The notes beneath the pieces were generated by a model. It was not told the DNA's origin. It saw only the letters and a program-made list of their open reading frames with translations, and did no database searches. From Rhizobium lentis (GTDB lineage Bacteria > Pseudomonadota > Alphaproteobacteria > Rhizobiales > Rhizobiaceae), in assembly GCF_017352135.1 (NCBI RefSeq), contig NZ_CP071457.1, forward strand, positions 186,001 to 250,000: a DNA stretch of 64,000 nt. Reading direction: 5' to 3'. Below, piece after piece: positions 12,196 to 27,822 of this stretch. Position 1 is the first letter of the stretch. Every line of letters starts with the position of its first letter. The position numbers and the translations under genes were made by a program.

Positions 12196-13059
12196 ATGCA
12201 TGAGCCGATTGAAAGCGATCTTTTGAGGACCTTCCTTGTCATCGCCGAGACCTCGAATTTCTCGGCGGCTGCCCAGCGCATCGGGCGGACGCAGTCGGCC
12301 GTCAGCAGCCAGATCAAGAAACTTGAGCAGACGATCGGCGAAACCCTGTTCGAGCGCGGCGCTCGCGGCGTGCTGCTGACGCGCCAGGGCATACAGCTTG
12401 TCCCTTATGCCCGCAGGGTCATCGATCTGCTGAGCGAAGCCGCCGCGACGATTCGCAGCAAACCGCTGGATGGGCCGGTGCGCATCGGAATTCCCGAGGA
12501 ATACAGTCAGACGGTGCTGCCGGCAGCCCTTGCGGCTTTCGCCGTACGCCATCCGGCCGTCGAGGTCACCGTGTCCTGCGACTATACCGTCCGTAACCTC
12601 GCCGCCCTCGAGCGGGACGAACTCGATCTGGCCGTCGTTTTTGACTGGAGCGACCAGACGAAAGGCGAGGTCCTCTGTGTTGACCCGACCGTCTGGGTTA
12701 CATCGATGGTTCATCGGCTGCACGACATCGATCCCCTGCCGATTGCGACCTATCGCAATTCCACATGGTCGCGCGATTATGCGCTGCGGTCGCTCGAGCA
12801 GATCGGCCGCAACTACCGGATTGCCTTCATCGCCGATACCGGCTCGGGGCTGAAGAATGCCGTCACCGCGGGTCTTGCGGTCACCACGCTGAGCCGCAGT
12901 AACATTCCGTCCAGCTGCCGGGAATTGACTGCCGAGGACGGTTTTCCGCCGGTGGATTCCTCGAAAGTCGTGCTCCGGCGCAATCCCTACCGATCCAGTG
13001 AGGCAGTTCGCGAACTTGCGGATATGTTGCGAGACGCCTTCCAGCCTACGTCGGCGTGA
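12196..13059 (+). CDS. LysR-family transcriptional regulator
   Basis: A 287-residue protein starting MHEPIESDLLRTFLVIAETS, with an N-terminal winged helix-turn-helix (FSAAAQRIGRTQSAVSSQIKKLEQ, about residues 22-45) and a LysR effector domain from about residue 90 (PVRIGIPEEYSQTVLPAALAAF). The upstream in-frame methionines belong to the divergent promoter region and lack family similarity, so ATG at 12196 is chosen. It probably regulates the divergent EamA exporter and itself. Its 3' end overlaps by 14 bp the convergent GlxA-type regulator gene. Confidence 0.9.
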   Translation: MHEPIESDLLRTFLVIAETSNFSAAAQRIGRTQSAVSSQIKKLEQTIGETLFERGARGVLLTRQGIQLVPYARRVIDLLSEAAATIRSKPLDGPVRIGIPEEYSQTVLPAALAAFAVRHPAVEVTVSCDYTVRNLAALERDELDLAVVFDWSDQTKGEVLCVDPTVWVTSMVHRLHDIDPLPIATYRNSTWSRDYALRSLEQIGRNYRIAFIADTGSGLKNAVTAGLAVTTLSRSNIPSSCRELTAEDGFPPVDSSKVVLRRNPYRSSEAVRELADMLRDAFQPTSA

Positions 13060-14026
13060 TGCGGCGGCGCAGGCGGCGCCGGGTCTCGGACGGGCTCTCG
13101 GAAAAACTCGCCCGGTAGCTTCTCGCAAAGGCCGAGGCCGAATTGAAGCCGCTCGCCGCCGCGATATCGGCGAAGGGAGCTGTCGTCTCGATCACCTTGC
13201 GGCGAGCGGCATTCAGGCGCAGCGCGAGATAGTGCACATGTGGCGGTGCGCCGATGCTCTGCTGGAAGAGATCCTGCAGATGCCGGGCGCTGACGCCCAC
13301 CCTGCGGGCGAGCCGCGCCAGGACCAGCGGCTGCTCTATGTGCTCCTCCATCAGCCGCATGGCCTGGTTGACGCGGGGATCATGCATGCGCAGCCCGGCC
13401 GAAGCTGCCGAAAGCGGCTCATCAGCATGGAACGAAGGCTGCTCGTAACGAAACAGTCGGCTGACCTCGAGCGCCAGCGAATAACCCTGCCGCTGCCTGA
13501 TGAGCTCCAGCATCAAATCCACCGTCGGAAGCGAACCTGATGTCGTCAGCCGCTTGCCGTCGATGACGAAGCGATCCTTGACCGCCCGCACCTCAGGATA
13601 TGCAAGCGCAAAATCCTCGTAATCCTCCCAGTGGACCGTGGCCGGCAAGCCGTCGAGCAAGCTTGCTTCGGCGAGCAACCATGTCCCGGACTCGATGCCG
13701 GCAATGACCGGGCGGTGGCGGGCGGCCCGGGAGAGCTGCATCTTGAGTGCCGGTGTAGCGCTGCGGCGCCAATTGTAGCTGGCAAGCACGAACAGCGGCC
13801 TATCCTCGGTCGTCGCCCGGAAGGGTCCCTCGGCCGGGATGGCGATATGGCTGGTGGTCGGGACCGGCGCCCCATCGGGTGTCAGCAGCCGCCAGCGGTA
13901 GAGCTCGCTGCCGGAGATGCGATTGGCGCCGCGCAGCGGCTCGATGACCGACGCGATCAGGATCAGGTTCGTATCCGGCAGAACGAGAAGATCGATGTCG
14001 AGCCGTTCGGTCGATCGCTGCAGCAA
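13046..14026 (-). CDS. GlxA-type AraC regulator of carnitine catabolism (CdhR-like)
   Basis: A 326-residue regulator with an N-terminal DJ-1/PfpI-like domain (IDLLVLPDTNLILIASVIEPLRGANRISG, then AGIESGTWLLAEASLLDG in the nucleophile-elbow position) and a C-terminal AraC double helix-turn-helix (LARLARRVGVSARHLQDLF; FADIAAASGFNSASAFARSYRASF). CdhR, GbdR and ArgR of pseudomonads share this architecture and sense amino acids or quaternary amines. Divergence from the carnitine genes argues for a CdhR role. TTG at 14026 is chosen because GGGAGG precedes it by five bases and it gives the usual short N-terminus. GTG at 14032 or TTG at 14077 are alternatives. Confidence 0.85.
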   Translation of the reverse strand: MLQRSTERLDIDLLVLPDTNLILIASVIEPLRGANRISGSELYRWRLLTPDGAPVPTTSHIAIPAEGPFRATTEDRPLFVLASYNWRRSATPALKMQLSRAARHRPVIAGIESGTWLLAEASLLDGLPATVHWEDYEDFALAYPEVRAVKDRFVIDGKRLTTSGSLPTVDLMLELIRQRQGYSLALEVSRLFRYEQPSFHADEPLSAASAGLRMHDPRVNQAMRLMEEHIEQPLVLARLARRVGVSARHLQDLFQQSIGAPPHVHYLALRLNAARRKVIETTAPFADIAAASGFNSASAFARSYRASFSESPSETRRRLRRRITPT

Positions 14027-14070
14027 AGCCACCTCCCACGAGTTCCGATACTGTATCAAGGGCTTCCGGA

Positions 14071-14114
14071 AATGCAAAGCATTCCTGCCCGCGCTGTCGC
14101 GTAATGGCGATAAG
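14071..14114. promoter_or_regulatory. candidate regulator sites in the divergent carnitine promoter
   Basis: Two signals lie in the 105-bp divergent region. One is a 5-bp inverted repeat AATGC-AAA-GCATT at 14071-14083. The other is a 10-bp-period direct repeat, TGTCGCGTAA then TGGCGATAAG, at 14095-14114. TGTCGC is the half-site core I recall for ArgR, a GlxA-type AraC protein of Pseudomonas. The direct repeat ends only a few bases before the ribosome site, which is close for an activator site. Confidence 0.35.
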
Positions 14115-14131: not shown

Positions 14132-15034
14132 ATGCCTCTAGCAATGAACCGCGATGTCTTCATTACCTGCGCCGTGACCGGCGCCGGCGACACGGTTTCC
14201 AGATCCAGTCACGTTCCCATTACGCCCAAGCAGATCGCGGAGTCCGCGATCGATGCCGCCAAGGCTGGGGCGGCTGTTGTTCACTGCCATGTCCGTGATC
14301 CGGAAACGGGGGCCGCCAGCCGCCGCAACGATCTCTACAGGGAAGTCACCGACCGCATCCGCTCGGCCGATATCGATGTCGTCCTCAATCTCACCGCCGG
14401 CATGGGCGGCGACCTGATCTTCGGCGATGTCGAAAGCCCCCTTCCCCTCAATGCGAAAGGGACCGACATGGTGGGCGCCAGCGAGCGCGTCAGCCATATC
14501 GCCGAGTGCCTGCCGGAGATCTGCACGCTCGACTGCGGCACGATGAACTTCAACCTCGGCGACTATGTCATGACCAACACGCCGGCCATGCTGCGAGCGA
14601 TGGCAAGCAAGATGACGGCTCTCGGAGTGCGGCCGGAAATCGAGGCCTTCGACACCGGCCATCTCTGGTTCGCCAAGCAACTCGCCGAAGAAGGCCTGAT
14701 CGAGGACCCGGTGCTGATTCAGCTCTGCATGGGCATTCCATGGGGCGCGCCCGACGATCTCAACACTTTCATGGCGATGGTCAACAACGTGCCTGCGAGC
14801 TGGACCTTTTCGGCCTTTTCGATCGGCCGCAACGCCATGGCCTATCCGGCCGCGGCGGTTCTGGCGGGCGGAAATGTGCGGGTCGGCCTGGAGGACAACC
14901 TGTTCGTCGGCAAGGGCCAGTTCGCCACCAATGCGCAGCTCGTCAAAAAGGCGGTGCAGGTGGTGGAAGGCATGGGCGCGCGAATCATCGGTCCGGAAGA
15001 CGTCCGCAAGAAACTCAAACTGACGAAGCGCTGA
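14132..15034 (+). CDS. 3-dehydrocarnitine cleavage enzyme (BKACE, DUF849)
   Basis: A 300-residue beta-keto acid cleavage enzyme. Zinc ligands are visible as His51 and His53 in VVHCHVRDPETG and Glu254 in GLEDN. NLTAGMGG and EIEAFDTGHLWF are further family motifs. BKACE enzymes condense a beta-keto acid with acetyl-CoA to release acetoacetate and a new acyl-CoA. Next to carnitine dehydrogenase the expected reaction is 3-dehydrocarnitine plus acetyl-CoA to betainyl-CoA plus acetoacetate. The start ATG has GGGGAG about ten bases upstream; Met5 lacks one. It is first of a tightly packed operon, 7 bp before the next gene. Confidence 0.92.
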   Translation: MPLAMNRDVFITCAVTGAGDTVSRSSHVPITPKQIAESAIDAAKAGAAVVHCHVRDPETGAASRRNDLYREVTDRIRSADIDVVLNLTAGMGGDLIFGDVESPLPLNAKGTDMVGASERVSHIAECLPEICTLDCGTMNFNLGDYVMTNTPAMLRAMASKMTALGVRPEIEAFDTGHLWFAKQLAEEGLIEDPVLIQLCMGIPWGAPDDLNTFMAMVNNVPASWTFSAFSIGRNAMAYPAAAVLAGGNVRVGLEDNLFVGKGQFATNAQLVKKAVQVVEGMGARIIGPEDVRKKLKLTKR

Positions 15035-15041
15035 GGGCGAC

Positions 15042-16532
15042 ATGACAGGGATCAGCAAGGCGGCTTGCATCGGCGGCGGCGTTATCGGCGGCGGATGGAT
15101 CGCCCGTTTCCTGCTCGCCGGCATCGACGTTGACGTGTTCGACCCGCATCCGGAGGCGGGCCGCATCGTCGGCGAAGTGATCGCCAATGCCGAAAAAGCC
15201 TATGCCATGCTGACCGGCGCGCCGCTGCCGCCGCGCGGCAGGCTACGTTTCTGCGCGACGCTGGAGGAAGCGGTCACCGATGCCGATTGGATCCAGGAGA
15301 GCGTGCCGGAACGGCTCGACCTCAAGCGCGCCGTGTTGACGCAAATTGATGCCGCGGCGCGTCCGGACGCTTTGATCGGTTCTTCCACCTCGGGCCTGCT
15401 GCCGACCGATCTGCAGCAGGACATGAAACATCCTGAGCGCCTCTTCGTCGCCCACCCCTATAATCCCGTCTATCTGCTGCCGCTGGTCGAAATCGTCGGC
15501 GGCGAAAAGACATCGGCGGCGACCATCCAGGCGGCGATGGACAGGCTGTCGCCGATCGGCATGAAGGGTGTCCACATTGCCAGGGAGATCGAAGCCTTTG
15601 TCGGTGACCGGCTGCTTGAGGCGCTGTGGCGCGAGGCGCTGTGGCTGATCCATGATGATATCTGCACCGTCGAGACGCTCGATGACGTCATCCGCTATTC
15701 CTTCGGCCTGCGCTGGGCGCAGATGGGCCTGTTCCAGACCTACCGCATCGCCGGCGGCGAGGCCGGCATGCGCCACTTCCTCGCCCAGTTCGGTCCATGC
15801 CTCGCCTGGCCCTGGACCAAGCTCACCGATGTCGTCGATCTCGACGAGGCGCTGATCGAAAAGATCGGCCGGCAATCCGACGAACAGGCGGCGGGTCTTT
15901 CGATCCGCGAGCTCGAACGCATCCGCGACGAAAATCTCGTCGGCATTCTCCAATCTCTCAAGGGCGGCGATAGCGGCAAAGGTTGGGGCGCCGGCAAGCT
16001 CTTGAAGGATTTCGAGCAATCGCTCTGGGCGAAGGGCGGCAGTGCGGCCGCGTCCTTCGATCCGTCGAAGCCGCTAAGGCTCATCGAAACCAAGGTGAGC
16101 CCTGCCTGGGTCGACTATAACGGCCATATGACCGAACACCGCTATCTCCAGGTCTTCGGCGATACGTCCGATGCGCTGCTGCGTCTTGTCGGCGTCGACC
16201 TCGCCTATGTCGAGGCGGGCCACAGTTATTATACGGTCGAAAGCCACATCCGCCATCTCGGCGAGGCAAAGCTCGGCCAGGCGATCCATTCGACCTGCCA
16301 GGTCTTGTCCACCGACGACAAACGGCTGCATGTCTTCCACACGCTGTACGATACGGCAACCGGTGATGCCCTCGCCACCGCCGAGCACCTGCTGCTGCAT
16401 GTCGACAGCAAGATGGGCAAGGCGACACCTGCGCCGGCCGCCGTGCTCGACAAGGTCAAGGCGATTGTCGCGGCTCATTCGGAATTGGCGCTGCCTGAAG
16501 GCGCCGGGCGTCACGTCGGCCAGAGGCGATAG
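15042..16532 (+). CDS. L-carnitine dehydrogenase / betainyl-CoA thioesterase fusion
   Basis: A 496-residue two-domain protein. Residues 1 to about 330 are a 3-hydroxyacyl-CoA-dehydrogenase-like NAD enzyme (GGGVIGGGW at 11-19; GSSTSGLLPTDLQ; HPYNPVYLLPLVEIVGG), which oxidises L-carnitine to 3-dehydrocarnitine. From about 345 a hot-dog thioesterase domain follows (WVDYNGHMTEHRYLQVF, with the DxxGHM motif near 357-362), expected to hydrolyse betainyl-CoA to glycine betaine and CoA. Rhizobial carnitine dehydrogenases are known in this fused form, and other bacteria use separate genes. It bridges the first and last steps around the BKACE enzyme encoded just upstream. Confidence 0.92.
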   Translation: MTGISKAACIGGGVIGGGWIARFLLAGIDVDVFDPHPEAGRIVGEVIANAEKAYAMLTGAPLPPRGRLRFCATLEEAVTDADWIQESVPERLDLKRAVLTQIDAAARPDALIGSSTSGLLPTDLQQDMKHPERLFVAHPYNPVYLLPLVEIVGGEKTSAATIQAAMDRLSPIGMKGVHIAREIEAFVGDRLLEALWREALWLIHDDICTVETLDDVIRYSFGLRWAQMGLFQTYRIAGGEAGMRHFLAQFGPCLAWPWTKLTDVVDLDEALIEKIGRQSDEQAAGLSIRELERIRDENLVGILQSLKGGDSGKGWGAGKLLKDFEQSLWAKGGSAAASFDPSKPLRLIETKVSPAWVDYNGHMTEHRYLQVFGDTSDALLRLVGVDLAYVEAGHSYYTVESHIRHLGEAKLGQAIHSTCQVLSTDDKRLHVFHTLYDTATGDALATAEHLLLHVDSKMGKATPAPAAVLDKVKAIVAAHSELALPEGAGRHVGQRR

Positions 16533-16542: not shown

Positions 16543-17703
16543 ATGGATTTCGGTCTCAGCGAAGAACAGGAAATGATCGTCGAGACGGTGCGTGCCTTTG
16601 TCGAAACCGAAATCTACCCGCATGAGAACGAGGTCGAGCGCACCGGCATCGTCCCGCCGGAGCTCGGGCGCGAGATCCAGCGCAAATGCATCGATCTCGG
16701 TTTTTATGCCTGCAACTTTCCGGAAGAGGTCGGCGGCGCCGGCCTCGATCATGTCACCTTCACGCTGGTCGAGCGGGAGCTCGGACGCGGTTCGCTGGGG
16801 CTGACGGTTTTCTTCGGCCGACCCTCCGGCATCCTGATGGCCTGCGAGGGCGAGCAGCGGGAACGTTATCTGCTGCCGGCGGTACGCGGCGAGAAGATCG
16901 ATGCGCTCGCCATCACCGAACCGGATGCCGGTTCCGATATGCGCGGCATGAAATGTGCCGCCCGCCGCGACGGCGGTGACTTCGTCCTCAACGGCACGAA
17001 ACATTTCATCTCGCATGCCGACGTCGCCGATTTCGTCATCATCTTTGCCGCCACAGGTGAGGAGGAAACGCCGAAGGGCATCAAGAAGAAGATCACCGCC
17101 TTCCTCGTCGATCGCGGCACGCCCGGCTTCCAAATCCTCAAAGGCTACGATTCCGTTTCGCATCGCGGCTACCACAACTCAACGCTCAGCTTTGAGGACT
17201 GCCGCATTCCGGCGAGACAGGTGCTGGGCGAAGTGCATCGCGGCTTCGATATCGCCAATCAGTGGCTCTACGGCACCCGGCTGACGGTTGCCGCCACCTG
17301 CGTCGGCAGGGCACGGCGCGTCTTCGACCTGGCGCTCCCCTATGCCGCCGAGCGCAAGCAGTTCGGCAAGCCGATCGGCGCCAATCAGGGCGTGTCGTTC
17401 AAGCTCGCAGATATGATCACCGAGATCGATGCGGCCGACTGGCTGACGCTTGCCGCTGCCTGGCAGGTCGATGCCGGCCGCCCCGCAGACCGGCAGATCG
17501 CCTCTGCCAAGCTCTATGCCTCGGAAATGCTCGCCCGCGTGACGGATGAGGCGATCCAGATTTTCGGCGGCATGGGCCTGATGGACGACCTGCCGCTCGC
17601 CCGCTTCTGGCGTGATGCGCGTGTCGAGCGCATCTGGGACGGCACCTCCGAAATCCAGCGGCACATCATCAGCCGCGATCTGCTTCGGCCCTTGGGAGCG
17701 TGA
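16543..17703 (+). CDS. acyl-CoA dehydrogenase, probable gamma-butyrobetainyl-CoA dehydrogenase
   Basis: A 386-residue flavoprotein starting MDFGLSEEQEMIVETVRAF, with AGGAGGAG six bases upstream, 10 bp after the preceding stop. The standard acyl-CoA dehydrogenase signature ITEPDAGSDMRGM and the C-terminal FGGMGLMDDLPLARFWRDARV are present. At the usual catalytic position (YEGT in medium-chain enzymes) it has WDGT, so the base would be Asp366 rather than Glu. With the ligase and CaiD it most likely oxidises gamma-butyrobetainyl-CoA to crotonobetainyl-CoA, passing electrons to ETF. The substrate is inferred from context only. Confidence 0.87.
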   Translation: MDFGLSEEQEMIVETVRAFVETEIYPHENEVERTGIVPPELGREIQRKCIDLGFYACNFPEEVGGAGLDHVTFTLVERELGRGSLGLTVFFGRPSGILMACEGEQRERYLLPAVRGEKIDALAITEPDAGSDMRGMKCAARRDGGDFVLNGTKHFISHADVADFVIIFAATGEEETPKGIKKKITAFLVDRGTPGFQILKGYDSVSHRGYHNSTLSFEDCRIPARQVLGEVHRGFDIANQWLYGTRLTVAATCVGRARRVFDLALPYAAERKQFGKPIGANQGVSFKLADMITEIDAADWLTLAAAWQVDAGRPADRQIASAKLYASEMLARVTDEAIQIFGGMGLMDDLPLARFWRDARVERIWDGTSEIQRHIISRDLLRPLGA

Positions 17704-17707: not shown

Positions 17708-19762
17708 ATGACCTCCAGCCCGCTCGACCGCCTGCTCAGACCGCAAACGATCGCCGTCTTCGGCGGCCGCGAGGCGCGTAGAGTGGTCGAGCAATGCGAC
17801 CGCATGGGCTTTTCAGGCGAGATCTGGCCTGTCCACCCGAAGCTCGACGAGGTACTGGGGCGACGCTGCTATCGCTCCCTCGCCGATCTGCCCGCAGCGC
17901 CGGATGCCGCTTTCATTGGCGTCAACCGGACGCTCACCATTGAAATCGTCCGCAGCCTTTCGCGAGCCGGTGCCGGCGGGGCGGTCTGTTATGCATCGGG
18001 CTTCAGCGAGGCGGCGGCGGAACTTGCCGATGGCGCCGAACTGCAGCAGGCCCTCGTGGAAGCGGCCGGCGACATGCCGATCCTCGGGCCGAACTGCTAC
18101 GGCCTGATCAACGGCCTCGACGGCGCGCTGTTATGGCCAGACCAGCACGGCATGCAGCGCGTCGAACGCGGCGTCGCGATCCTCACGCAGTCCTCCAATA
18201 TCGCCCTCAACCTGACCATGCAGACGCGCGGGCTGCCGATCGCCTATGTGGTCACATCAGGCAACCAGGCGCAGACATCGCTTGCCGATGTCGCCTGTGC
18301 GCTGATCGAGGATCAGCGCGTCACGGCCGTTGGCCTTCATGTCGAAGGGTTCGGCGACCTTGCCGGCCTCGAACGCCTCGCCGCCCTCGCCCGCCGGTCG
18401 AAGAAGCCCGTCGTCGTGCTGAAGGTCGGCAGGTCCGAGCAGGCAAAACACGCAGCCGTGTCGCACACCGCCTCGCTTGCCGGCAGCGATGCGGTGGCGG
18501 ATGCCGTGCTCGCCCGCCTTGGTCTCGGCCGTGTCCAGAGCCTGCCGGCGCTGCTCGAAACCCTGAAGCTGCTGCATATTGCCGGCCCCCTGCCAGGCCA
18601 TTCGATCTCGTCCATGAGCTGCTCCGGCGGCGAGGCTTCGCTGATGGCGGATGCCGCCGTCGGCCGCAGGGTCGAATTCGCCTCTCTGGGGCCACAGCAA
18701 TTGCCGCGCCTGCGCCGAGCCCTCGGCGAGATGGTGGCGCTTGCCAATCCGCTCGATTACCACACCTTCGTCTGGGGTGATCTCGTCCGTCAGACGGAAG
18801 CCTTCAGCGCCATGTTCGAGGGCGGCTGCGCGCTCAATCTTGTGGTTCTCGATTTTCCCCGCAGCGACCGGTGTGATGCATCCGAGTGGACGACGACGAC
18901 AGACGCGGTCATCGCAGCAGCGTCCGCAACCGGTGCATTGGCCGGCGTGCTCGCGACCCTTCCCGAGAACATGCCGGAGCCTGTTGCCGAGCGGCTGATG
19001 GCTAATGGCATTGTCGCCTTCTCGGGTATCGACGAAGCCATCACCGCGGCGGAAGTCGCCGCTGGGATCGGCGAGGCCTGGAATGATCCGGCACCCCTGC
19101 CGCTGCTCAACGTCGTCCCCGTTGATGGCGAGCTCGATACGCTGTCGGAAGCCGACGCGAAGCTCGAGCTTGCCGCCTGCGGCCTCCCTGTTCCCCGGGG
19201 GCTGCAGGCTTTTTCTCCTCATGAAGCCGCCGAGCAGGCCGAGCGGCTCGGTTTTCCTGTCGTGCTGAAGGGGCTCGGCATCGCCCATAAGACCGAGGCC
19301 GGGGCTGTCGTGCTCGACCTCAGGGACCCGGAGGCGGTGTCGACTGCGGCGGCGGCTATGGTCGCGAATGGCGGTTATCTCATCGAGAAGATGATCGATC
19401 CGCCGGTCGCGGAGCTCATCGTAGGCGCCAGTCGCGATCCCGTCTTCGGATTGTCGCTGACGTTGGGAGCGGGCGGAATCTTCGTGGAATTGCTCGAAGA
19501 TTCCGTCATACTGCCGCTTCCGGCGACGAAAGCCGATATTCGCGCGGCGATTTCCCGCCTGAAAATCGCAAAGCTCATTCATGGCTATCGTGGCCGGCCG
19601 CGCGGCGATCTTGGAGCTACCATCGACGCTGTCGCAGCTACGGCAGAATATGTCGTACAGAATGCGGTGCGCCTGGAGGAACTGGACCTTAATCCCTTGA
19701 TGGTTCTTCCCGAAGGGCGCGGTGTTGTTGCAGTCGATGCTCTGATACGGCGAAGGAGGTAG
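17708..19762 (+). CDS. NDP-forming acyl-CoA synthetase, probable butyrobetaine/carnitine-CoA ligase
   Basis: A 684-residue fused-subunit acyl-CoA synthetase of the acetate/succinyl-CoA-ligase superfamily. It has an N-terminal CoA-binding domain (QTIAVFGGREARRVVEQCDRMGF), two ligase-CoA domains with the phosphorylatable His253 (AVSHTASLAGSD), and a C-terminal ATP-grasp domain from about 480 (AKLELAACGLPVPRG, FPVVLKGLGIAHKTEAGAV, EELDLNPLMVLPEG). It makes a CoA thioester from a carboxylate, ATP (or GTP) and CoA. This differs from E. coli CaiC, an AMP-forming ligase. Position between the dehydrogenase and CaiD suggests gamma-butyrobetaine, crotonobetaine or carnitine as substrate. Confidence 0.88.
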   Translation: MTSSPLDRLLRPQTIAVFGGREARRVVEQCDRMGFSGEIWPVHPKLDEVLGRRCYRSLADLPAAPDAAFIGVNRTLTIEIVRSLSRAGAGGAVCYASGFSEAAAELADGAELQQALVEAAGDMPILGPNCYGLINGLDGALLWPDQHGMQRVERGVAILTQSSNIALNLTMQTRGLPIAYVVTSGNQAQTSLADVACALIEDQRVTAVGLHVEGFGDLAGLERLAALARRSKKPVVVLKVGRSEQAKHAAVSHTASLAGSDAVADAVLARLGLGRVQSLPALLETLKLLHIAGPLPGHSISSMSCSGGEASLMADAAVGRRVEFASLGPQQLPRLRRALGEMVALANPLDYHTFVWGDLVRQTEAFSAMFEGGCALNLVVLDFPRSDRCDASEWTTTTDAVIAAASATGALAGVLATLPENMPEPVAERLMANGIVAFSGIDEAITAAEVAAGIGEAWNDPAPLPLLNVVPVDGELDTLSEADAKLELAACGLPVPRGLQAFSPHEAAEQAERLGFPVVLKGLGIAHKTEAGAVVLDLRDPEAVSTAAAAMVANGGYLIEKMIDPPVAELIVGASRDPVFGLSLTLGAGGIFVELLEDSVILPLPATKADIRAAISRLKIAKLIHGYRGRPRGDLGATIDAVAATAEYVVQNAVRLEELDLNPLMVLPEGRGVVAVDALIRRRR

Positions 19763-19769: not shown

Positions 19770-20552
19770 TTGAGCGACCACATTCGTACACGACGTGACG
19801 GCGGTATATTGGAAGTCGTCATCGACCGGCCGAAGGCGAACGCCATCGACCTTGCGACCAGCCGCGCCATGGGATTGATCTTCCGGGATTTCCGCGACGA
19901 CCCTGACGTGCGCGTCGCCATCGTCACGGGTGCGGGCGAGAAGTTTTTCTGCGCCGGATGGGATCTGAAGGCGGCGGTATCAGGGGATGCGGTCGACGGC
20001 GATTACGGTGTGGGCGGCTTCGGCGGGCTGCAGGAATTGCGTGACCTCAACAAGCCTGTCATCTGTGCCGTCAACGGCATCTGTTGCGGCGGCGGACTGG
20101 AGATTGCACTCTCAACAGACCTGATCCTCGCCGCCGAACATGCGACCTTCGCCCTGCCGGAAATCCGCTCGGGCACGGTGGCCGATGCAGCCTCGATCAA
20201 GCTACCGAAGCGCATCCCCTACCATATTGCCATGGACATGCTTTTGACCGGTCGCTGGCTCGATGTCCATGAAGCTCATCGCTGGGGTTTCGTCAATGAG
20301 GTCCTGCCGGCCGAGCGAGTGATGGCGAGAGCCTGGGAGCTTGCCCGCCTGCTCGAAAGCGGGCCGCCGCTCGTCTATGCGGCGATCAAGGAAATCGTGC
20401 GCGAAGCGGAGGGGTCGACGTTCCAGACTGCTATGAACAAGATCACCAAACGGCAGTTCGCGACCGTCGACAGGCTCTATTCGAGCGAAGACCAATTGGA
20501 AGGCGCGCGGGCTTTCGCGGAGAAGCGAAGCCCCATTTGGAAAGGACAATAA
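19770..20552 (+). CDS. caiD: crotonobetainyl-CoA hydratase (carnitinyl-CoA dehydratase)
   Basis: A 260-residue crotonase-fold enzyme that lines up with E. coli CaiD along its length as I recall that sequence (ILEVVIDRPKANAID; FRDDPDVRVAIVTGAGEKFFCAGWDLKAA; AFAEKRSPIWKGQ at the end). The two active-site glutamates fall at identical numbers, Glu111 (GGGLEIAL) and Glu131 (FALPEIR). It hydrates crotonobetainyl-CoA to L-carnitinyl-CoA. The start is TTG at 19770, about ten bases after AAGGAGG. In E. coli CaiD serves anaerobic carnitine respiration, whereas here it sits with an oxidative route. It ends the enzyme operon before a 117-bp gap. Confidence 0.92.
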   Translation: MSDHIRTRRDGGILEVVIDRPKANAIDLATSRAMGLIFRDFRDDPDVRVAIVTGAGEKFFCAGWDLKAAVSGDAVDGDYGVGGFGGLQELRDLNKPVICAVNGICCGGGLEIALSTDLILAAEHATFALPEIRSGTVADAASIKLPKRIPYHIAMDMLLTGRWLDVHEAHRWGFVNEVLPAERVMARAWELARLLESGPPLVYAAIKEIVREAEGSTFQTAMNKITKRQFATVDRLYSSEDQLEGARAFAEKRSPIWKGQ

Positions 20553-20577: not shown

Positions 20578-20592
20578 CCCGCATGATGCGGG
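20578..20592. promoter_or_regulatory. inverted repeat between caiD and transporter genes
   Basis: CCCGCAT-G-ATGCGGG is a perfect 7-bp inverted repeat around a single base, 25 bp after the caiD stop and 78 bp before the binding-protein gene. It could be a hairpin tuning read-through or an operator. There is no T-run. Confidence 0.35.
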
Positions 20593-20669
20593 CACCGGAG
20601 GTGGAGAGGAAACCGCCTTCGATCCTGCCCGGAAGTTCTGTCAACGCACCACAAAGAAGGAACTGGGGA

Positions 20670-22259
20670 ATGAACGACTACACGAAATATCTTGCAAGCC
20701 GCGTCACTGCCGGCGGGCTCAGCCGCCGTGAATTCATGGGACGCGCCATGGCGGCGGGCATCACACTTGCCGTCGCCGACAAGCTCTTCACCGAAAGTGC
20801 TGAAGCCGCTGAACCGAAGCGCGGCGGTCATCTGAAGCTCGGCCTCGAAGGCGGTGCTGCAACCGATTCCAAGGACCCGGCGAAATTCCTGTCGCAGTTC
20901 ATGTTCTGCGTCGGCCGCTGCTGGGGCGACATGCTGGTCGAATCCGACCCGCTGACGGGGGCGGCCGTGCCGGCGCTCGCCGAATCCTGGGAGCCGTCGA
21001 AGGACGCCGTCACCTGGACCTTCAAGATCCGCAAGGGTGTCAAGTTCCACGATGGCAAGGAACTGACGATCGACGACGTCGTCGCGACGCTGAAACGCCA
21101 CACCGACGCAAAGTCGGAATCCGGCGCGCTCGGCGTGCTCGGGTCGATCAAGGAGATCAAGGCTGACGGCGGCAACCTCGTCCTGACGCTGAGCGAAGGC
21201 AATGCCGACATGCCGCTGCTACTGTCGGACTACCATCTGGTCATCCAGCCGAATGGCGGCGTTGACGATCCGCTGGCCTCGATCGGCACTGGTCCTTACA
21301 AGCTCGTGAGCTTCGAGGCGGGCGTTCGCGCCACCTTCGAAAAGAACAAGGACGACTGGCGCACCGACCGGGGTTATGTCGATTCGATCGAGATCATCGG
21401 CATGAACGATGCAACCGCCCGCATCGCCGCGCTTTCGTCCGGCCAGGTGCACTATATCAACCGCGTCGATCCGAAGACGGTCAACCTCTTGAAACGCGCG
21501 CCGAATGTCGAAATCCTGTCGACCGCCGGCCGCGGCCACTATGTCTTCATCATGCATTGCGACAAGGCGCCGTTCGACAACAACGATCTGCGCCTGGCGC
21601 TCAAATACGCCATGGACCGCGAGACCATGGTGCAGAAGATCCTCGGCGGCTACGGCAAGGTCGGTAACGACTTCCCGATCAACGCCACCTATGCGCTCTT
21701 CCCCGAAGGCATCGAGCAGCGCACCTACGATCCCGACAAGGCTGCCTTCCACTACAAGAAGTCAGGCCATAGCGGCTCGGTCCTTCTGCGCACCTCGGAA
21801 GTCGCCTTTCCCGGCGCCGTCGATGCGGCCGTCCTCTATCAGGAAAGCTGCAAGAAGGCCGGCATCGAGATCGAGGTCAAGCGCGAGCCGGGCGACGGCT
21901 ACTGGACCAATGTCTGGAACGTTCAGCCCTTCTCGACCTCCTACTGGGGCGGCCGTCCGACGCAGGACCAGATGTATTCCACCGCCTACCTCTCCACGGC
22001 GGACTGGAATGACACCAAGTTCAAGCGTCCTGACTTCGACAAGCTCTTGCTGCAGGCCCGCTCCGAACTCGACGAAGCCAAGCGTAAGGAGCTGTACCGC
22101 ACCATGGCGATGATGGTGCGCGACGAGGGCGGCGTGATCCTTCCGATGTTCAACGACTTCGTGAACGCCTCCACCAAGCAGGTGAAGGGTTATGTCCACG
22201 ATATCGGCAACGACATGTCGAACGGCTATGTCGCAACGCGCGTCTGGTTGGACGCCTGA
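20670..22259 (+). CDS. peptide-type ABC transporter substrate-binding protein (probable quaternary-amine uptake)
   Basis: A 529-residue SBP_bac_5 protein. The ATG at 20670 follows GGGG closely and gives a Tat-type signal, SRREFMGRAMAAGITLAVADKLF, so it may be exported folded. Family features are KRGGHLKLGLEGG, LAESWEPSKDAVTWTFKIRKGVKFHDG and FDNNDLRLALKYAMDRETMV. Binding proteins of this class carry peptides, but also nickel, sugars and opines. Placement right after caiD suggests gamma-butyrobetaine, carnitine or an acylated derivative. A strong hairpin follows before the permease genes. Confidence 0.9.
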   Translation: MNDYTKYLASRVTAGGLSRREFMGRAMAAGITLAVADKLFTESAEAAEPKRGGHLKLGLEGGAATDSKDPAKFLSQFMFCVGRCWGDMLVESDPLTGAAVPALAESWEPSKDAVTWTFKIRKGVKFHDGKELTIDDVVATLKRHTDAKSESGALGVLGSIKEIKADGGNLVLTLSEGNADMPLLLSDYHLVIQPNGGVDDPLASIGTGPYKLVSFEAGVRATFEKNKDDWRTDRGYVDSIEIIGMNDATARIAALSSGQVHYINRVDPKTVNLLKRAPNVEILSTAGRGHYVFIMHCDKAPFDNNDLRLALKYAMDRETMVQKILGGYGKVGNDFPINATYALFPEGIEQRTYDPDKAAFHYKKSGHSGSVLLRTSEVAFPGAVDAAVLYQESCKKAGIEIEVKREPGDGYWTNVWNVQPFSTSYWGGRPTQDQMYSTAYLSTADWNDTKFKRPDFDKLLLQARSELDEAKRKELYRTMAMMVRDEGGVILPMFNDFVNASTKQVKGYVHDIGNDMSNGYVATRVWLDA

Positions 22260-22355: not shown

Positions 22356-23360
22356 ATGACCAATCCTGCCCCCAGCATCTTGCCCGGGCTCGGGTTCCGG
22401 CAGCGTTTTCCGCTGCTGGCCCTCATCCTCGAGCGCTTCGTGCTCAGTCTCGTCCTGCTTATCGCGGTCTCTGTCCTGATCTTCGGCGGCCTGGAAGCCC
22501 TACCCGGCGATTTCGCCACAACCTATCTCGGCCAGTCGGCGACGCCGCAGGCGGTTGCCAATATCCGCCAGGACTTGGGGCTCGATCGCCCGGTCACGAC
22601 GCGGTATGTCGAGTGGCTCGGCAACGCCGTCCAGGGTGACTTCGGCACCTCCTGGGCCAGCAAGAATTCGGTCAGCGAACAGATCGGCAAGCGTCTCGGC
22701 AATTCGCTCTTCCTGGCCGGTTTTGCAGCGGTGATATCGGTTCCGCTCGCCATCGGGCTCGGCATGCTGTCGGTACATTTTCGCAACCGCATGCCGGATA
22801 AGATCATCAACGTGATCTCGCTGGCGGCGATCTCGCTGCCGGAATTCTTCATCGGCTACCTCTTGATCCTCTTCTTCGCCGTCAAGTTCGGCATGGCGAC
22901 CTTCCCGGCGACCGTCTATGACAGCATGGGTTTCGTCGAGCGATTGAAGGCGATCGCGCTGCCGACGGCGACCTTGGTGCTCGTCGTGCTCGCCCACATG
23001 ATGCGCATGACTCGGGCGGCGATCCTCTCCGTCATGTCGTCGGCCTATATGGAGACCGCGGAGCTGAAGGGCCTCAGCGCCTTCCGTTCGATCGTCAAGC
23101 ATGCCGCTCCCAATGCGCTGGCGCCGATCATCAATGTCGTCGCATTGAACCTCGCCTATCTCGTTGTCGGCGTCGTTGTCGTCGAGGTCGTCTTCGTCTA
23201 TCCCGGCATGGGGCAATATATGGTCGATGCGGTGACGGTTCGCGATATGCCTGTCGTGCAGGCGTGCGGCCTGATCTTCGCGGCCGTTTATATCTTCCTC
23301 AACATGACGGCCGATATCCTCGCGATCATCGCCAATCCCCGCCTGAGGCATCCGAGATGA
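22356..23360 (+). CDS. ABC transporter permease (DppB type)
   Basis: A 334-residue inner-membrane permease. It has the DppB/OppB layout: one N-terminal membrane helix (FVLSLVLLIAVSVLIFGGLEALPGD), a periplasmic loop, then five helices. The EAA loop is near MSSAYMETAELKGLSAFRSIVKHAAPNAL. Its stop overlaps the start of the next permease (ATGA). It pairs with the binding protein at 20670 and the fused ATPase at 24177. Confidence 0.92.
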   Translation: MTNPAPSILPGLGFRQRFPLLALILERFVLSLVLLIAVSVLIFGGLEALPGDFATTYLGQSATPQAVANIRQDLGLDRPVTTRYVEWLGNAVQGDFGTSWASKNSVSEQIGKRLGNSLFLAGFAAVISVPLAIGLGMLSVHFRNRMPDKIINVISLAAISLPEFFIGYLLILFFAVKFGMATFPATVYDSMGFVERLKAIALPTATLVLVVLAHMMRMTRAAILSVMSSAYMETAELKGLSAFRSIVKHAAPNALAPIINVVALNLAYLVVGVVVVEVVFVYPGMGQYMVDAVTVRDMPVVQACGLIFAAVYIFLNMTADILAIIANPRLRHPR

Positions 23361-24184
23361 GATTGAGAGACATCCCCATCACCGCCTGGATCGGCATGAT
23401 CGGCATCGCCATCGCCTTCATCTTCGCTCTCTTTGCGCCCTGGATCGCCCCCTATGGCGAAACCCAGGTCGTCGGCGACGTTTGGGCGCCTGCCGACGCT
23501 AATTACGTCTTCGGCCTCGACAATCTCGGCCGCGATATCCTCTCGCGCCTGATCTACGGCGCGCGCACGACGCTGATGGTTGCCTCCGCCGCCACCATCA
23601 TCTCCTTTTCGCTCGGCGTCATCCTGAGCTTCACCGCAGCGGTGTCGCGCGGCATTGTCGACACGGTGTTTTCGCGCTTCAACGATCTGATGATGTCGAT
23701 CCCGACGCTGATCTTCGCGCTCGTGGTGCTCGCTGTTCTGCCGCAAAACATGATCGTCCTCATCCTCGTGATGGCGATCCTGGATTCCACCCGCGTCTAT
23801 CGTCTCGGCCGTGCCGTGGCGCTCGATGTCGCGGTGATGGAATTCGTGGAGGCGGCGAAGCTGCGCGGAGAAGGCAAGCTCTGGATCATCTTCCGCGAAA
23901 TTCTGCCGAACACGCTGTCGCCGCTGCTTGCCGAATTCGGGCTGCGCTTCGCCTTCTCGATCCTGTTCCTCTCCACCCTGTCCTTCCTCGGCCTCGGCAT
24001 TCAGCCGCCGGCGGCCGATTGGGGTGGCATGGTCAAGGACAACAAGGACGGCATCATCTTCGGCATCTCGGCCGCGCTGGTGCCCGGCACGGCGATCGCC
24101 GTGCTCGCCGTCTGCGTCAATCTCGTCGTCGATTGGCTCCTGAAACGCACATCCAGCCTCAAGGGAGGGCGCGGCGATGCCTGA
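23357..24184 (+). CDS. ABC transporter permease (DppC type)
   Basis: A 275-residue permease starting MRLRDIPITAWIGMIGIAIAF at the ATG overlapping the previous stop. It has the DppC signature of an N-terminal helix, then FGLDNLGRDILSRLIYGARTTL. The EAA loop is VMEFVEAAKLRGEGKLWIIFREILPNTLSPL. Its stop overlaps the downstream ATPase start by 8 bp, so translational coupling is likely. Confidence 0.92.
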   Translation: MRLRDIPITAWIGMIGIAIAFIFALFAPWIAPYGETQVVGDVWAPADANYVFGLDNLGRDILSRLIYGARTTLMVASAATIISFSLGVILSFTAAVSRGIVDTVFSRFNDLMMSIPTLIFALVVLAVLPQNMIVLILVMAILDSTRVYRLGRAVALDVAVMEFVEAAKLRGEGKLWIIFREILPNTLSPLLAEFGLRFAFSILFLSTLSFLGLGIQPPAADWGGMVKDNKDGIIFGISAALVPGTAIAVLAVCVNLVVDWLLKRTSSLKGGRGDA

Positions 24185-25808
24185 GCTTCTTTCCGTCCGC
24201 AATCTGAAAATCGAAGCTACCAGCTATCCGCCGGGCGAACCGCCCAAGCGCGTGACGATCGTCGACGGAGTTTCGTTCGATCTCCAGAAAGGCAAGGTCC
24301 TCGGCCTGATCGGGGAATCGGGCGCCGGCAAGTCGACGATCGGCCTCTCCGCACTGGCCTATGGCCGGGGCGGAGCCGAAATCACCGGCGGCGAGGTGCG
24401 GCTCGACGGCGCCGATATCCTGGCGCTCGGCAAGAGCGGCATCCGGAAAATCCGCGGCGCGCGGGTCTGCTATGTCGCGCAATCGGCGGCCGCCGCCTTC
24501 AATCCGGCGCACAGGCTAGGCGACCAGGTGATCGAGGCGTCGGTCAAGCATGGTCTGATGAGCAAGGACCAGGCGCTCAAGCGAGCGTTTTATCTGTTCC
24601 GCGTGCTCGGCCTGCCCAATCCGGAAACCTTCGGCGAGCGCTTCGCCCATCAGGTCTCCGGCGGTCAGTTGCAGCGGGCGATGACGGCGATGGCGCTCTG
24701 CTCCAACCCCGAACTGATCGTCTTCGACGAGCCGACGACGGCGCTCGACGTCACCACGCAGATTGACGTGCTGGCGGCAATCAAGCATGCGATCGAGGAA
24801 ACGCACACCGCCGCCCTCTATATCACCCACGACCTCGCCGTCGTCGCCCAGATCTCGGACGACATCATGGTTCTGCGCCACGGCAAACAGGTCGAATATG
24901 GCAGCGTCCGGCAGATCATCGAGGCGCCGCGGGAAGACTATACGCGCGCCCTCGTCAATGTCAGGCAGGCCTACCGCGAGGAAGCTGCCGATCAGTCCAC
25001 GGCACTTCTCAAGGTCGAGAATGTCAGCGCCGAATATTCCAACGGCTTCAAGGTGCTGCACGATGTCTCGCTGCATGTGCCGCGGGGGCAGACGCTCGCC
25101 GTCGTCGGCGAATCCGGCTCGGGCAAGTCGACGCTGGCGCGCGTCATCACCGGCCTGCTGCCACCGAGCAGCGGCCGGATCGTCTTCGACGGCAGGCCGC
25201 TGATGCCCGGCCTCAAGAGCCGGCCGAACGACGACCTCAGACGCATCCAGCTGATCTATCAGATGGCAGATACGGCGATGAATCCGCGCCAGACTGTCCG
25301 CGATATCATCGGCCGCCCGCTGACCTTCTATTATGGCCTGAGAGGCCGCGAGAAGACCGCCCGGGTGAAGGAATTGCTCGACCAGATCGAAATGGGCAAC
25401 GGCTTTATCGATCGTTACCCGGCCGAACTCTCAGGTGGCCAGAAGCAGCGCGTGGCGATTGCAAGAGCCCTTGCCGCCAAGCCGGAACTCATCCTCTGCG
25501 ACGAACCGACCTCGGCCCTCGATCCGCTGGTGGCAGAGGGCATTCTCAAGCTCCTCCTGCGCCTGCAGGAGGAAGAGCAGCTTTCCTACGTCTTCATTAC
25601 CCACGACATCGCGATCGTCCGGGCGATTGCCGATAGCGTCGCGGTGATGCATCGCGGCAAGCTGGTGCGCTTCGGCCCGAAATCGACGGCGCTGTCGCCG
25701 CCCTTCGACGATTATACCGACCTGTTGTTGAAATCGGTGCCGGAGATGGAAATCGGCTGGCTGGAACGCGTGCTCGCCACGCGACGCATGGAAAGCGCCG
25801 GACACTGA
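24177..25808 (+). CDS. fused dipeptide-type ABC ATPase (DppD-DppF fusion)
   Basis: A 543-residue protein with two complete nucleotide-binding domains. Domain 1 has GESGAGKST, signature VSGGQLQRA and Walker B LIVFDEPTTALD. Domain 2 starts near residue 280 with GESGSGKST, signature LSGGQKQRV and [12 protein letters not shown]. Both sites look active. The fusion replaces the two separate ATPases common in this transporter class, and the gene completes the quaternary-amine-locus transporter. Confidence 0.93.
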   Translation: MPELLSVRNLKIEATSYPPGEPPKRVTIVDGVSFDLQKGKVLGLIGESGAGKSTIGLSALAYGRGGAEITGGEVRLDGADILALGKSGIRKIRGARVCYVAQSAAAAFNPAHRLGDQVIEASVKHGLMSKDQALKRAFYLFRVLGLPNPETFGERFAHQVSGGQLQRAMTAMALCSNPELIVFDEPTTALDVTTQIDVLAAIKHAIEETHTAALYITHDLAVVAQISDDIMVLRHGKQVEYGSVRQIIEAPREDYTRALVNVRQAYREEAADQSTALLKVENVSAEYSNGFKVLHDVSLHVPRGQTLAVVGESGSGKSTLARVITGLLPPSSGRIVFDGRPLMPGLKSRPNDDLRRIQLIYQMADTAMNPRQTVRDIIGRPLTFYYGLRGREKTARVKELLDQIEMGNGFIDRYPAELSGGQKQRVAIARALAAKPELILCDEPTSALDPLVAEGILKLLLRLQEEEQLSYVFITHDIAIVRAIADSVAVMHRGKLVRFGPKSTALSPPFDDYTDLLLKSVPEMEIGWLERVLATRRMESAGH

Positions 25809-25818
25809 GAGGAAGAGC

Positions 25819-27822
25819 ATGGTTTCGCGCGGTTTCACCACCATCGAGAACGAATGGATCACGCTGAAGGACGGGACACGGCTGGCCGCGCGCATCTGGA
25901 TGCCTGACGGTACGGAGCAGGATCCAGTTCCCGCCGTCTTCGAATTTCTGCCCTATCGCAAGCGGGATGGAACGAGTCCCAGGGATGAGTCCACCTATCC
26001 GGTCTTCGCAGCCGCGGGCATTGCCGGCGTGCGCGTTGATATCCGCGGGTCCGGCGAGTCCGACGGCGTCATCGATGGCGAATATACCGAGCGCGAGCTT
26101 GCCGATGCCTGCGAGCTGATCGCCTGGATCGCCGCACAGCCGTGGTCGAACGGCTCGGTTGGTATGATGGGCATTTCATGGGGCGGCTTCAACAGTCTCC
26201 AGGTCGCAGCATTGCGCCCGCCGGCGCTGAAGGCCGTCATCTCCATCGCCTCGACCGTCGACCGGTATAATGACGATATTCACTACAAGAATGGCTGCCA
26301 TCTCTCCGCCCAGCTCTCCTGGGCAGCGACGATGCTTGGATACCAGTCGCGCCCGCCCGATCCGGCCCTGGCCGGCGAGCGCTGGAAGGAGATGTGGCTG
26401 GAACGCCTGGCAGGCGAACCCTTTTTCATGGAGGCGTGGCTCGCCCATCAGCGGCGCGACGATTTCTGGCGCCACGGCTCGATCTCCGAGGATTTTTCGA
26501 ACGTGGAGATCCCGGCGCTCGTCATCGCCGGCTGGGCGGATGGTTATCGCAATACGCCTCTGATGGCGGTCGAAGGTCTCGGGGAAAAAGCAAAAGCGCT
26601 GATCGGCCCGTGGGTCCACAAATATCCGCATTTCGCCTGGCCGAAGCCGCGGGCGGATTTCCATGGCGAGGCGATCGCCTGGTGGAACAAATGGCTGCGC
26701 GGCGAGGACAATGGAAGCAACGACCTGCCACAGGTCCGCGCCTATATCCTCGATGCCATCCGCCCCGCCCCCCGCCGCGACAGCGATCCCGGTTTCTGGA
26801 TCGGCAAGGACGCCTGGTCGCCGCCGCGGATGCAATGCTTCTATGTCGAGCAATTCGGCAAGCTGACGGAAGGCATGCCGATCCCGCATGCGCCCGAGCA
26901 TGCCGTCTATCTCCATTCTCCCCTCGACACCGGCACGGCATCGGGAGAATATTTCACGCTGAAGCCCGACGCCGAAATGGCGGGCGATCAGCGTGGGGAC
27001 GATGCCGGCTCACTGGTCTTCGAGACGATGCCGCTTGCCGGGGACTGCGATTGCCTCGGCCGGCCGGTATTGACACTCGCGCTGCGCGCCCGCGCGACAG
27101 GCGGCAATCTCTGCGCCCGGCTGGTTGACGTTCACCCGGACGGAACGGCGATGCGCGTCGCCTTCGGCGTCGTCAATCTCACCCATCGCGACGGCAATGC
27201 CGACCCCAAGCCGCTCTCGCCGGGCGAGAAGGTATCGATCCGGCTCGTGCTCGATGGCTGCGGTTATCGCTTCCGCAAGGGCCATCGCATCCGCCTTTCG
27301 CTTTCGACCGCCTATTGGCCGGTGATCCTGCCGCCGCCTGATGACCAAGGGCTCGAGGTCGATATCGCCTCGCTTGGCCTGGGGCTGCCCTTGCTCGGTG
27401 AACACAGCAGGATCGACATCAAGGAACCGGCCAATCCCGATCCGCTGCCTCAATATATCGAGCACGTGGGCGCCGCGACGAAGCGGCAGGTCGTCCGTGA
27501 TCTTTCAGAAAACCGAACGGACTACCGCATCCACGAGGATACAGGACTTTACGAACATCCCGAGACCGGCCTGTCGACACGGCAATTGCGCGAAGAAGTC
27601 TGGTCGATTTCGCCGGATGATCCGCTGTCGATGACCGGCACGTCGACCTGGACCTGCGACATGCACAGACCCGGCTGGTTCGTGCGCACCGTAGCGACCG
27701 CGCGGATGGCGTGCACCGAAACCGATTGGGTCGTCAGCGCCGTCGTCACCGCATTCGAGGATGATGTGCAGATCTTCGAAAAGATCTTTGCCGAAAAGCG
27801 GATCGCGCGCGACCTGATGTGA
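25819..27822 (+). CDS. CocE/NonD-family serine hydrolase
   Basis: A 667-residue X-Pro dipeptidyl-peptidase/CocE-type hydrolase. The nucleophile Ser is in MGISWGGFNS, the acid in IAGWADGYRNT and the His in GPWVHKYPH. The C-terminal jelly-roll domain follows from about residue 380 (LVFETMPLAGDCDCLGRPVLTLALRA). Relatives cleave esters (cocaine), amides or acyl-peptides and lack a signal peptide, as here. It lies 10 bp after the ATPase stop, so it is probably in the same transcript and acts on what the transporter brings in. A quaternary-amine ester or amide such as an acylcarnitine is possible, as is a peptide. Confidence 0.88.
   Translation: MVSRGFTTIENEWITLKDGTRLAARIWMPDGTEQDPVPAVFEFLPYRKRDGTSPRDESTYPVFAAAGIAGVRVDIRGSGESDGVIDGEYTERELADACELIAWIAAQPWSNGSVGMMGISWGGFNSLQVAALRPPALKAVISIASTVDRYNDDIHYKNGCHLSAQLSWAATMLGYQSRPPDPALAGERWKEMWLERLAGEPFFMEAWLAHQRRDDFWRHGSISEDFSNVEIPALVIAGWADGYRNTPLMAVEGLGEKAKALIGPWVHKYPHFAWPKPRADFHGEAIAWWNKWLRGEDNGSNDLPQVRAYILDAIRPAPRRDSDPGFWIGKDAWSPPRMQCFYVEQFGKLTEGMPIPHAPEHAVYLHSPLDTGTASGEYFTLKPDAEMAGDQRGDDAGSLVFETMPLAGDCDCLGRPVLTLALRARATGGNLCARLVDVHPDGTAMRVAFGVVNLTHRDGNADPKPLSPGEKVSIRLVLDGCGYRFRKGHRIRLSLSTAYWPVILPPPDDQGLEVDIASLGLGLPLLGEHSRIDIKEPANPDPLPQYIEHVGAATKRQVVRDLSENRTDYRIHEDTGLYEHPETGLSTRQLREEVWSISPDDPLSMTGTSTWTCDMHRPGWFVRTVATARMACTETDWVVSAVVTAFEDDVQIFEKIFAEKRIARDLM

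Follow-up and report, generated by a model that had tools for sequence, protein, structure and literature searches.

In E. coli, a CaiD-like hydratase and an acyl-CoA dehydrogenase encoded by the caiTABCDE genes act on betainyl-type CoA esters, and in P. aeruginosa carnitine dehydrogenase and thioesterase are encoded by separate genes. A seven-step conversion of gamma-butyrobetaine to glycine betaine by five enzymes encoded in one gene cluster was reportedly described by Bazire et al. (2019, J Bacteriol 201:e00772-18). For S. meliloti, a passage of PMC12482172 (citing Bazire 2019) assigns carnitine oxidation and betainyl-CoA hydrolysis to SM2011_c01638, SMc01639 is named as a putative acyl-CoA dehydrogenase in PMC12542648, SMc01642 is entered as PrbA in a table of PMC4941405, and SMc01642/3/4 are mentioned in connection with proline-betaine transport in PMC3596328. 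A parallel operon, caiX-cdhCAB-hocS, with a divergent cdhR is described for P. aeruginosa in a section of PMC5806209.

A gene set of this kind is found in Rhizobium lentis at positions 13046–27822 of the window, i.e., the whole stretch of 64,000 nucleotides analyzed, where a divergent AraC-type regulator is accompanied by ten genes on one strand (Table 1). The genes, their order, strand, and coordinates, including the divergent regulator, agree with the preliminary description. As in the S. meliloti-type cluster, BKACE, a carnitine dehydrogenase fused to a thioesterase (CDH-TE), an acyl-CoA dehydrogenase, an ADP-forming ligase, and a CaiD-like hydratase lie in one run; an Opp-like solute-binding protein (SBP), two permeases, and a fused ATPase stand directly after the CaiD-like gene, and the cocE gene follows 10 bp behind these Prb genes. 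What is observed directly comprises the genes and their order, the residues, the conservation across loci, and the distribution of the CocE module. We consider it probable, at roughly 80%, that the locus as a whole would import betaines and convert gamma-butyrobetaine to glycine betaine, that it is orthologous to the S. meliloti region, and that CocE stems from a neighboring module.

Table 1. Genes of the locus in window coordinates; the starts of the dehydrogenase, ligase, SBP, and second permease genes are refined ones
Feature	Position	Strand	Characteristics
AraC-type regulator, weak DJ-1/PfpI N-terminal match, CdhR/GbdR-like	13046..14077	-	GbdR 194.4 bits; HTH_18 79.7 bits
BKACE, predicted 3-dehydrocarnitine cleavage to betainyl-CoA + acetoacetate	14132..15034	+	PF05853 318.4 bits; best solved chain 3c6c
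Carnitine 3-dehydrogenase fused to 4HBT-type thioesterase, predicted betainyl-CoA hydrolysis	15042..16532	+	NF005716 934.7 bits; 3HCDH_N, 3HCDH, 4HBT_2
Acyl-CoA dehydrogenase, predicted gamma-butyrobetainyl-CoA dehydrogenase	16543..17703	+	Asp366 where catalytic Glu is usual
NDP(ADP)-forming acyl-CoA ligase, predicted gamma-butyrobetaine ligase	17708..19762	+	Histidine conserved in 80/80 loci; match to 7cm9
CaiD-like enoyl-CoA hydratase, Glu111 + Glu131	19770..20552	+	NF002936 308.9 bits; both Glu in 80/80 loci
PrbA-type family 5 solute-binding protein	20670..22259	+	Twin-arginine-like signal SRREFMGR (by eye)
PrbB-type permease	22356..23360	+	
PrbC-type permease	23357..24184	+	
PrbD-type fused ATPase, two ABC domains	24177..25808	+	
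CocE/NonD (S15) hydrolase	25819..27822	+	Motifs GISWGG, GWADG, GPWVH

The arrangement exceeds chance: of 80 related loci, 75 carry every gene from the regulator to the ATPase in this order, and four of the five exceptions are cut contigs. Across the order, 297 genomes contain 73 places with CDH, at no fewer than 43 of which the ligase lies within 10 kb, a count into which 53 of 70 ligase rows entered. Among 40 wider regions, chosen for CDH or ligase hits, 22 combine BKACE, CDH, dehydrogenase, and ligase, 19 of them together with a CaiD-like gene, and 11 carry the carnitine part alone (BKACE, CDH, TE). The same order recurs at 64–87% per gene in 12 Sinorhizobium/Ensifer loci. These relatives, taken from an 80-locus set without the S. 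meliloti sequence itself, and the locus numbers make it most likely that the locus is orthologous to S. meliloti SMc01637–SMc01645, where the Bazire 2019 enzymes precede the prbABCD genes of Alloing 2006. The functions given for SMc01638, SMc01639, and SMc01642–44 bring the S. meliloti numbering into line with the gene order found here, the remaining locus numbers being deduced from order.

The strongest identification is that of CDH-TE, whose score with the NCBIfam carnitine 3-dehydrogenase model is far above the cut-off of 592 bits. For the AraC-type regulator, the best NCBIfam model is GbdR, with a score under the cut-off of 480. Set against the E. coli cai operon, the hydratase stays below the 500 bits required by the CaiD model, the dehydrogenase reaches 184.4 of the 540 bits required by the crotonobetainyl-CoA dehydrogenase (CaiA) model, and the ligase is ADP-forming. 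Both glutamates announced for the hydratase are present and conserved (Table 1). The dehydrogenase has Asp instead of the catalytic Glu in all 77 readable Rhizobium/Sinorhizobium-type loci, and across the 40 wider regions the position is occupied by Asp in 13 and by Glu in 13 of 26 readable loci (of the remaining 14 regions, 13 are without a dehydrogenase match and one is cut off). As the residue varies within the family, its interpretation as a defect or a signature of the enzyme was rejected.

Family membership, conserved residues, conserved gene order, and the published S. meliloti work support the enzyme path of the preliminary description, which is most likely correct as judged from sequence but already known from S. 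meliloti. Every reaction and its substrates, as well as cotranscription and the history of the modules, are what we infer. First, the ADP-forming ligase would convert gamma-butyrobetaine to gamma-butyrobetainyl-CoA, which the acyl-CoA dehydrogenase would oxidize to crotonobetainyl-CoA. The CaiD-like hydratase would then yield carnitinyl-CoA, from which either the thioesterase domain or the ligase working backwards may free the CoA. Next, carnitine dehydrogenase would generate 3-dehydrocarnitine, BKACE would cleave the latter, using acetyl-CoA, into acetoacetate and betainyl-CoA, and glycine betaine would be released from betainyl-CoA by the fused thioesterase. The 2-oxoglutarate hydroxylase model TIGR02409 found no match in this genome and likewise none in 14 control genomes, which makes this search uninformative. 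With regard to CoA release, eight of the 40 regions (L162–L168 and L174) contain BKACE, CDH, and ligase and are devoid of the thioesterase domain, whereas all 13 regions that have BKACE and CDH and lack the ligase contain this domain; a cut contig bearing a CDH piece (L194) contains neither ligase nor thioesterase domain. The thioesterase-less clusters were dropped as proof of ligase reversal and say nothing firm on CoA release, since an unlinked thioesterase (31–41% identity) is present in all 13 searched genomes of this kind, i.e., the eight and five more judged alike from short CDH matches.

The terminal gene encodes a member of the CocE/NonD family, matching TIGR00976 with 228.9 bits (cut-off 66.3) as well as PF02129 and PF08530, and solved cocaine esterases are its best structural matches by sequence. 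Its three motifs presumably provide the Ser, Asp, and His of the catalytic triad. Between PrbD and CocE, 32 of the 80 loci contain an XRE-type regulator in divergent orientation and a further binding protein (SBP2), and 39, this genome's included, lack them there; on one gene tree, presence and absence have switched at least 10 times. Six genomes harbor complete SBP-permease-ATPase-CocE units with neither CDH at 1e-60 nor ligase at 1e-100, two of the six having BKACE matches of only 36–40%. Because CocE has its own XRE regulator and SBP2 in many relatives and occurs in complete units without CDH and ligase, a role as a step of the pathway was judged unlikely. The gene would rather be part of a neighboring XRE-type regulator/SBP2/CocE module, of which regulator and SBP2 are absent here. 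As an unproven best guess, SBP2 would make use of the Prb permease, and CocE would split a betaine conjugate after its import, hydrolysis of such a compound being the most likely function of CocE. In the R. leguminosarum group, CocE N-termini are MTSRG-like when the gene follows directly and MSDRS when SBP2 lies between; these differing starts hint at exchange of the whole block and argue against simple loss of XRE-SBP2. Tentatively, an undescribed two-branch betaine uptake in Rhizobiaceae can be envisaged: the Prb permease and ATPase would serve two paralogous binding proteins, PrbA, tied to AraC and the carnitine genes, and SBP2 with its own XRE-type regulator; SBP2 would import a betaine ester or amide for cleavage by a cytoplasmic CocE, and repeated loss or exchange of XRE-SBP2 would, in this genome as elsewhere, have brought CocE beside the Prb and carnitine genes. 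Pfam analysis of the neighbors of CocE units (19 proteins and the gap ORF of L162) revealed no recurrent pathway, the names among the best 120 of 7993 hits of a CocE protein search are CocE/NonD hydrolase, peptidase or alike, or hypothetical, and in a literature search on CocE with betaines in rhizobia CocE is absent among the matches listed.

Alternatively, CocE might be a functional stand-in for Pseudomonas HocS, cleaving O-acylcarnitines imported by the Prb-type transporter and thus belonging to carnitine catabolism. The P. aeruginosa carnitine operon ends in hocS and encodes short-chain acylcarnitine hydrolysis (as stated in a section of PMC5806209), and ABC-CocE genes of 43–56% identity reside beside BKACE and CDH-TE in two remote lineages, G085 (L149/L192) and G210 (L150/L175). 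Counted with kinship ignored, 41 genomes have both CocE and CDH, 27 CDH only, 14 CocE only, and 215 neither. However, CocE is found within 20 kb of CDH at only four of the 73 places, a lower bound owing to contig ends, and the six genomes with complete CocE units but without CDH or ligase also speak against this function, which we regard as doubtful compared with a separate module.

Its position and the published annotation identify the importer as one of the PrbABCD type, which in S. meliloti is an Opp-like transporter of proline betaine. Since this type is known for proline betaine, the importer is viewed as a betaine importer adjoining the pathway and not as the gamma-butyrobetaine route's own transporter, as had been proposed. 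Prb orthologs reported for PRF 81, the source strain of locus L066, are probably the same genes as those of L066. That another betaine, e.g., proline betaine or a sulfonium acid, is the real substrate instead of gamma-butyrobetaine appears improbable, as the S. meliloti counterpart is active on carnitine and betainyl-CoA (a passage of PMC12482172). The carnitine dehydrogenase match far above its curated cut-off likewise outweighs the proline-betaine type of the transporter and the alignment of the ligase, over nearly its whole length, with the DMSP lyase 7cm9. Slightly less probable still is a mainly reductive or racemizing function of the three CoA enzymes as in the E. coli cai operon: CaiD homologs work in both directions and the best NCBIfam model of the dehydrogenase is acryloyl-CoA reductase AcrC (309.1 bits, under the cut-off of 640), but the cluster also holds an NAD-type carnitine dehydrogenase together with BKACE and thioesterase, a set that is meaningful only if glycine betaine is formed oxidatively, and the scan of the genes at the locus revealed none of the CaiT, CaiB, or CaiC type.

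The oxidative CoA route constitutes an alternative to the 2-oxoglutarate hydroxylase for making carnitine, a point already covered by the S. meliloti work; added here are its wide occurrence across the order (linkage at no fewer than 43 of 73 places) and a transporter of known type. With the gamma-butyrobetaine/carnitine cluster already known in S. meliloti, what seems new is the terminal CocE from a separate uptake module. It points to an unexamined module for conjugate uptake and could reveal plant-derived betaine esters or amides used by rhizobia.

Compared with known systems, the CDH-TE resembles SM2011_c01638, likewise a dehydrogenase and betainyl-CoA hydrolase according to the passage cited above, although it belongs to a different genus and its reactions are predicted. 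PrbABCD of S. meliloti likewise comprises an Opp-like SBP, two permeases, and a fused ATPase at the place implied by the locus numbers, a likeness of position and annotation, whereas CocE is attached in the Rhizobium locus. As in P. aeruginosa, where caiX-cdhCAB-hocS includes an acylcarnitine hydrolase gene, an AraC regulator stands divergent from genes for the conversion of carnitine to glycine betaine, but a gamma-butyrobetaine part is not described in the relevant section of PMC5806209. In contrast to the E. coli cai operon, the Rhizobium ligase is ADP-forming and not of the CaiC type, CaiT and CaiB are missing from the locus, and the proposed direction is oxidative. Finally, the Rhizobium CocE shares family and motifs with cocaine esterase and CocE/NonD (S15) enzymes, yet exceeds them in length (667 aa) and is linked to the genes of a family 5 transporter.

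The divergent regulator and the ten genes named in the preliminary description were all found, in the order stated (Table). The window (G000:C4:186001-250000) belongs to a genome of 6.42 Mb, and the nearest matches of its CaiD-like hydratase, among those listed, are from Rhizobium (95%). The hormone-sensitive-lipase-like gene downstream is retained in many related loci; its product reaches 232.5 bits against the LipP1 model, under the cut-off of 350. The small RNAs AbcR1/2 act on the prbA mRNA in S. meliloti, according to a passage in PMC8844928.

Table. Features of the locus and of compared loci (L-numbers); window coordinates unless a locus is named
Feature	Position	Strand	Remark
AraC-type regulator	13046-14077	minus	divergent from ten plus-strand genes, listed in order
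BKACE (predicted 3-dehydrocarnitine cleavage enzyme)		plus
Fused carnitine dehydrogenase-thioesterase (CDH-TE)		plus
Acyl-CoA dehydrogenase (ACAD)	16543-17703	plus
NDP-forming CoA ligase		plus
CaiD-like hydratase		plus
Leader region of binding-protein gene	20571-20700		putative counterpart of S. meliloti prbA leader
Family 5 binding protein (SBP)		plus
Two permeases		plus
Fused ATPase		plus
CocE/NonD hydrolase		plus
Hormone-sensitive-lipase-like hydrolase (minus strand) and ECF-type sigma factor	27826-29522		3′ of locus
XRE-type regulator and second binding protein (SBP2)	L004:16102-18584		between ATPase and CocE
369-residue gene	L031:16215-17321		between ATPase and XRE-type regulator
209-residue ORF	L162:4652-5278		between BKACE and CDH
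Half-length ATPase match	L002, about 14.4-15.9 kb

The dehydrogenase-thioesterase scores 934.7 bits against the curated carnitine 3-dehydrogenase cut-off of 592, and the family assignments of BKACE and CocE are clear. Neither the CaiD-like hydratase nor the acyl-CoA dehydrogenase reaches the cut-off of its E. coli-type model (CaiD and CaiA, respectively), which makes them relatives rather than proven equals. Both glutamates of the hydratase occur in all 80 related loci. The histidine of the ligase is likewise kept in 80/80 (as SHT in 79), and a near full-length solved relative is a DMSP lyase, the substrate of which is a betaine-like sulfonium acid. The ligase type is reversible; candidate enzymes for the release of carnitinyl-CoA are the ligase and the fused thioesterase. 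BKACE, CDH and ligase clusters without a thioesterase domain occur in L162-L168 and L174, with thioesterases unlinked in the same genomes; the ORF in L162 has no Pfam match at 1e-6.

The glutamate of the IYEGTSE motif is the catalytic base of acyl-CoA dehydrogenases. Where aligned short-chain enzymes have this motif, the dehydrogenase of the window reads IWDGTSE, with aspartate at residue 366 in place of the usual catalytic glutamate. All 77 related loci that are readable at this site have aspartate. Of the 40 wider regions, which were chosen for CDH or ligase matches, 26 are readable here, 13 with aspartate and 13 with glutamate. The replacement is one tolerated within the family, not a defect.

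The complete order regulator-BKACE-CDH-ACAD-ligase-CaiD-SBP-permeases-ATPase, on the expected strands, is present in 75 of the 80 related loci, the exceptions being four cut contigs (L076-L079) and L075, which has the regulator and five enzymes and no transporter. Solely in L002 is the best ATPase match half-length, possibly through a frameshift or sequencing error. Compared locus L066 comes from PRF 81. Across 297 genomes of the order, matches were obtained for CDH in 68 and CocE in 55 (both 1e-60), for the ATPase in 76 (1e-140) and for the ligase in 57 (1e-100). Of 73 CDH places, at least 43 have the ligase within 10 kb (53 of 70 ligase matches taken in), at least 10 the ATPase within 15 kb (72 of 103 taken in) and at least 4 CocE within 20 kb. 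Given these counts, the enzymes make up a common, modular pathway, which the importer accompanies more loosely. BKACE, CDH, ACAD and ligase occur together in 22 of the 40 wider regions, 19 of which also have a CaiD-like gene, and 11/40 carry BKACE, CDH and TE only. In two genomes (G295 and G129) the transporter-CocE block is on other contigs than the enzymes.

In the window CocE comes 10 bp after the ATPase, with no SBP2 between them; 39 of the 80 related loci show this arrangement (gaps of about 12-168 bp in 21 others read). In 32 loci, including L004, a divergent helix-turn-helix (XRE-type) regulator (261 residues in L004) and SBP2 intervene; SBP2 is a PrbA paralog, 66% identical to the first binding protein and without permeases of its own there. 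CocE was not seen in seven of the 80 loci and the ATPase in two. The source genome seems to lack SBP2, because its best match there is the first binding protein (66%) and the next reaches 36%. The L031 gene has a weak Thioesterase-domain match (PF00975), and ORFs of the same length occupy this place in several other loci. XRE-SBP-permeases-ATPase-CocE units apart from the enzymes occur in other families (L124-L128, L130), in one case (G237, L126) with the enzymes elsewhere in the genome; L121, L129 and L131 have XRE-SBP2-CocE without permeases alongside. Of the 21 genomes in which CocE stands directly behind the ATPase, 14 have CDH; of the seven without it, the six searched for BKACE (all but G203) gave no close match, two reaching 36-40%.

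A tree of 41 binding proteins places those linked to XRE in a single clade of 14 rows (support 95/94), or 15 with L123 (100/100), which leaves out the CaiD-downstream proteins; the latter group weakly (84/60), with L077 and L163 outside. A quick tree of 67 Prb (proline-betaine transport) systems has the two CocE states switching at least 10 times, this being a gene tree in which recombination could add state changes. In the R. leguminosarum group, CocE starts MTSRG-like when directly behind the ATPase (L003, L005, L007, L017, L018) and MSDRS when SBP2 lies between (L004, L008, L014, L016), hinting at whole-block exchange. As junctions also vary in length and sequence, block exchange is as possible as loss of XRE-SBP2.

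A precedent for several binding proteins sharing one permease is the Cbc transporter, going by the title of Chen 2010 (cited in PMC12143400). CocE carries GISWGG at 118, GWADG at 238 and GPWVH at 263, and no signal peptide was seen by eye, so the predicted enzyme should act on an imported substrate. Given how closely the binding protein resembles PrbA, the simplest guess for this substrate is a betaine conjugate. By analogy with P. aeruginosa hocS, as presented in PMC5806209, acylcarnitine is one candidate. Genomes without carnitine genes argue for a broader substrate than acylcarnitine.

Bazire et al. 2019 reportedly described five enzymes that turn gamma-butyrobetaine into glycine betaine in seven steps, from a cluster found via gene context. 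Carnitine oxidation and betainyl-CoA hydrolysis are both assigned to S. meliloti SM2011_c01638 in PMC12482172, which credits Bazire et al. 2019; SMc01639 is named a putative acyl-CoA dehydrogenase (PMC12542648), PrbA is given as SMc01642 (PMC4941405) and proline-betaine transport as SMc01642/3/4 (PMC3596328), Prb being an Opp-like ABC transporter by the title of Alloing 2006 (cited in PMC11337228). These locus numbers match the gene order here, ligase and CaiD being the two genes between ACAD and SBP; therefore, as far as could be checked, the pathway cluster is already known. The CoA-dependent route proposed in the preliminary description is sound and, having been described in this close relative, not new; the new part is small, namely the CocE/SBP2 module.
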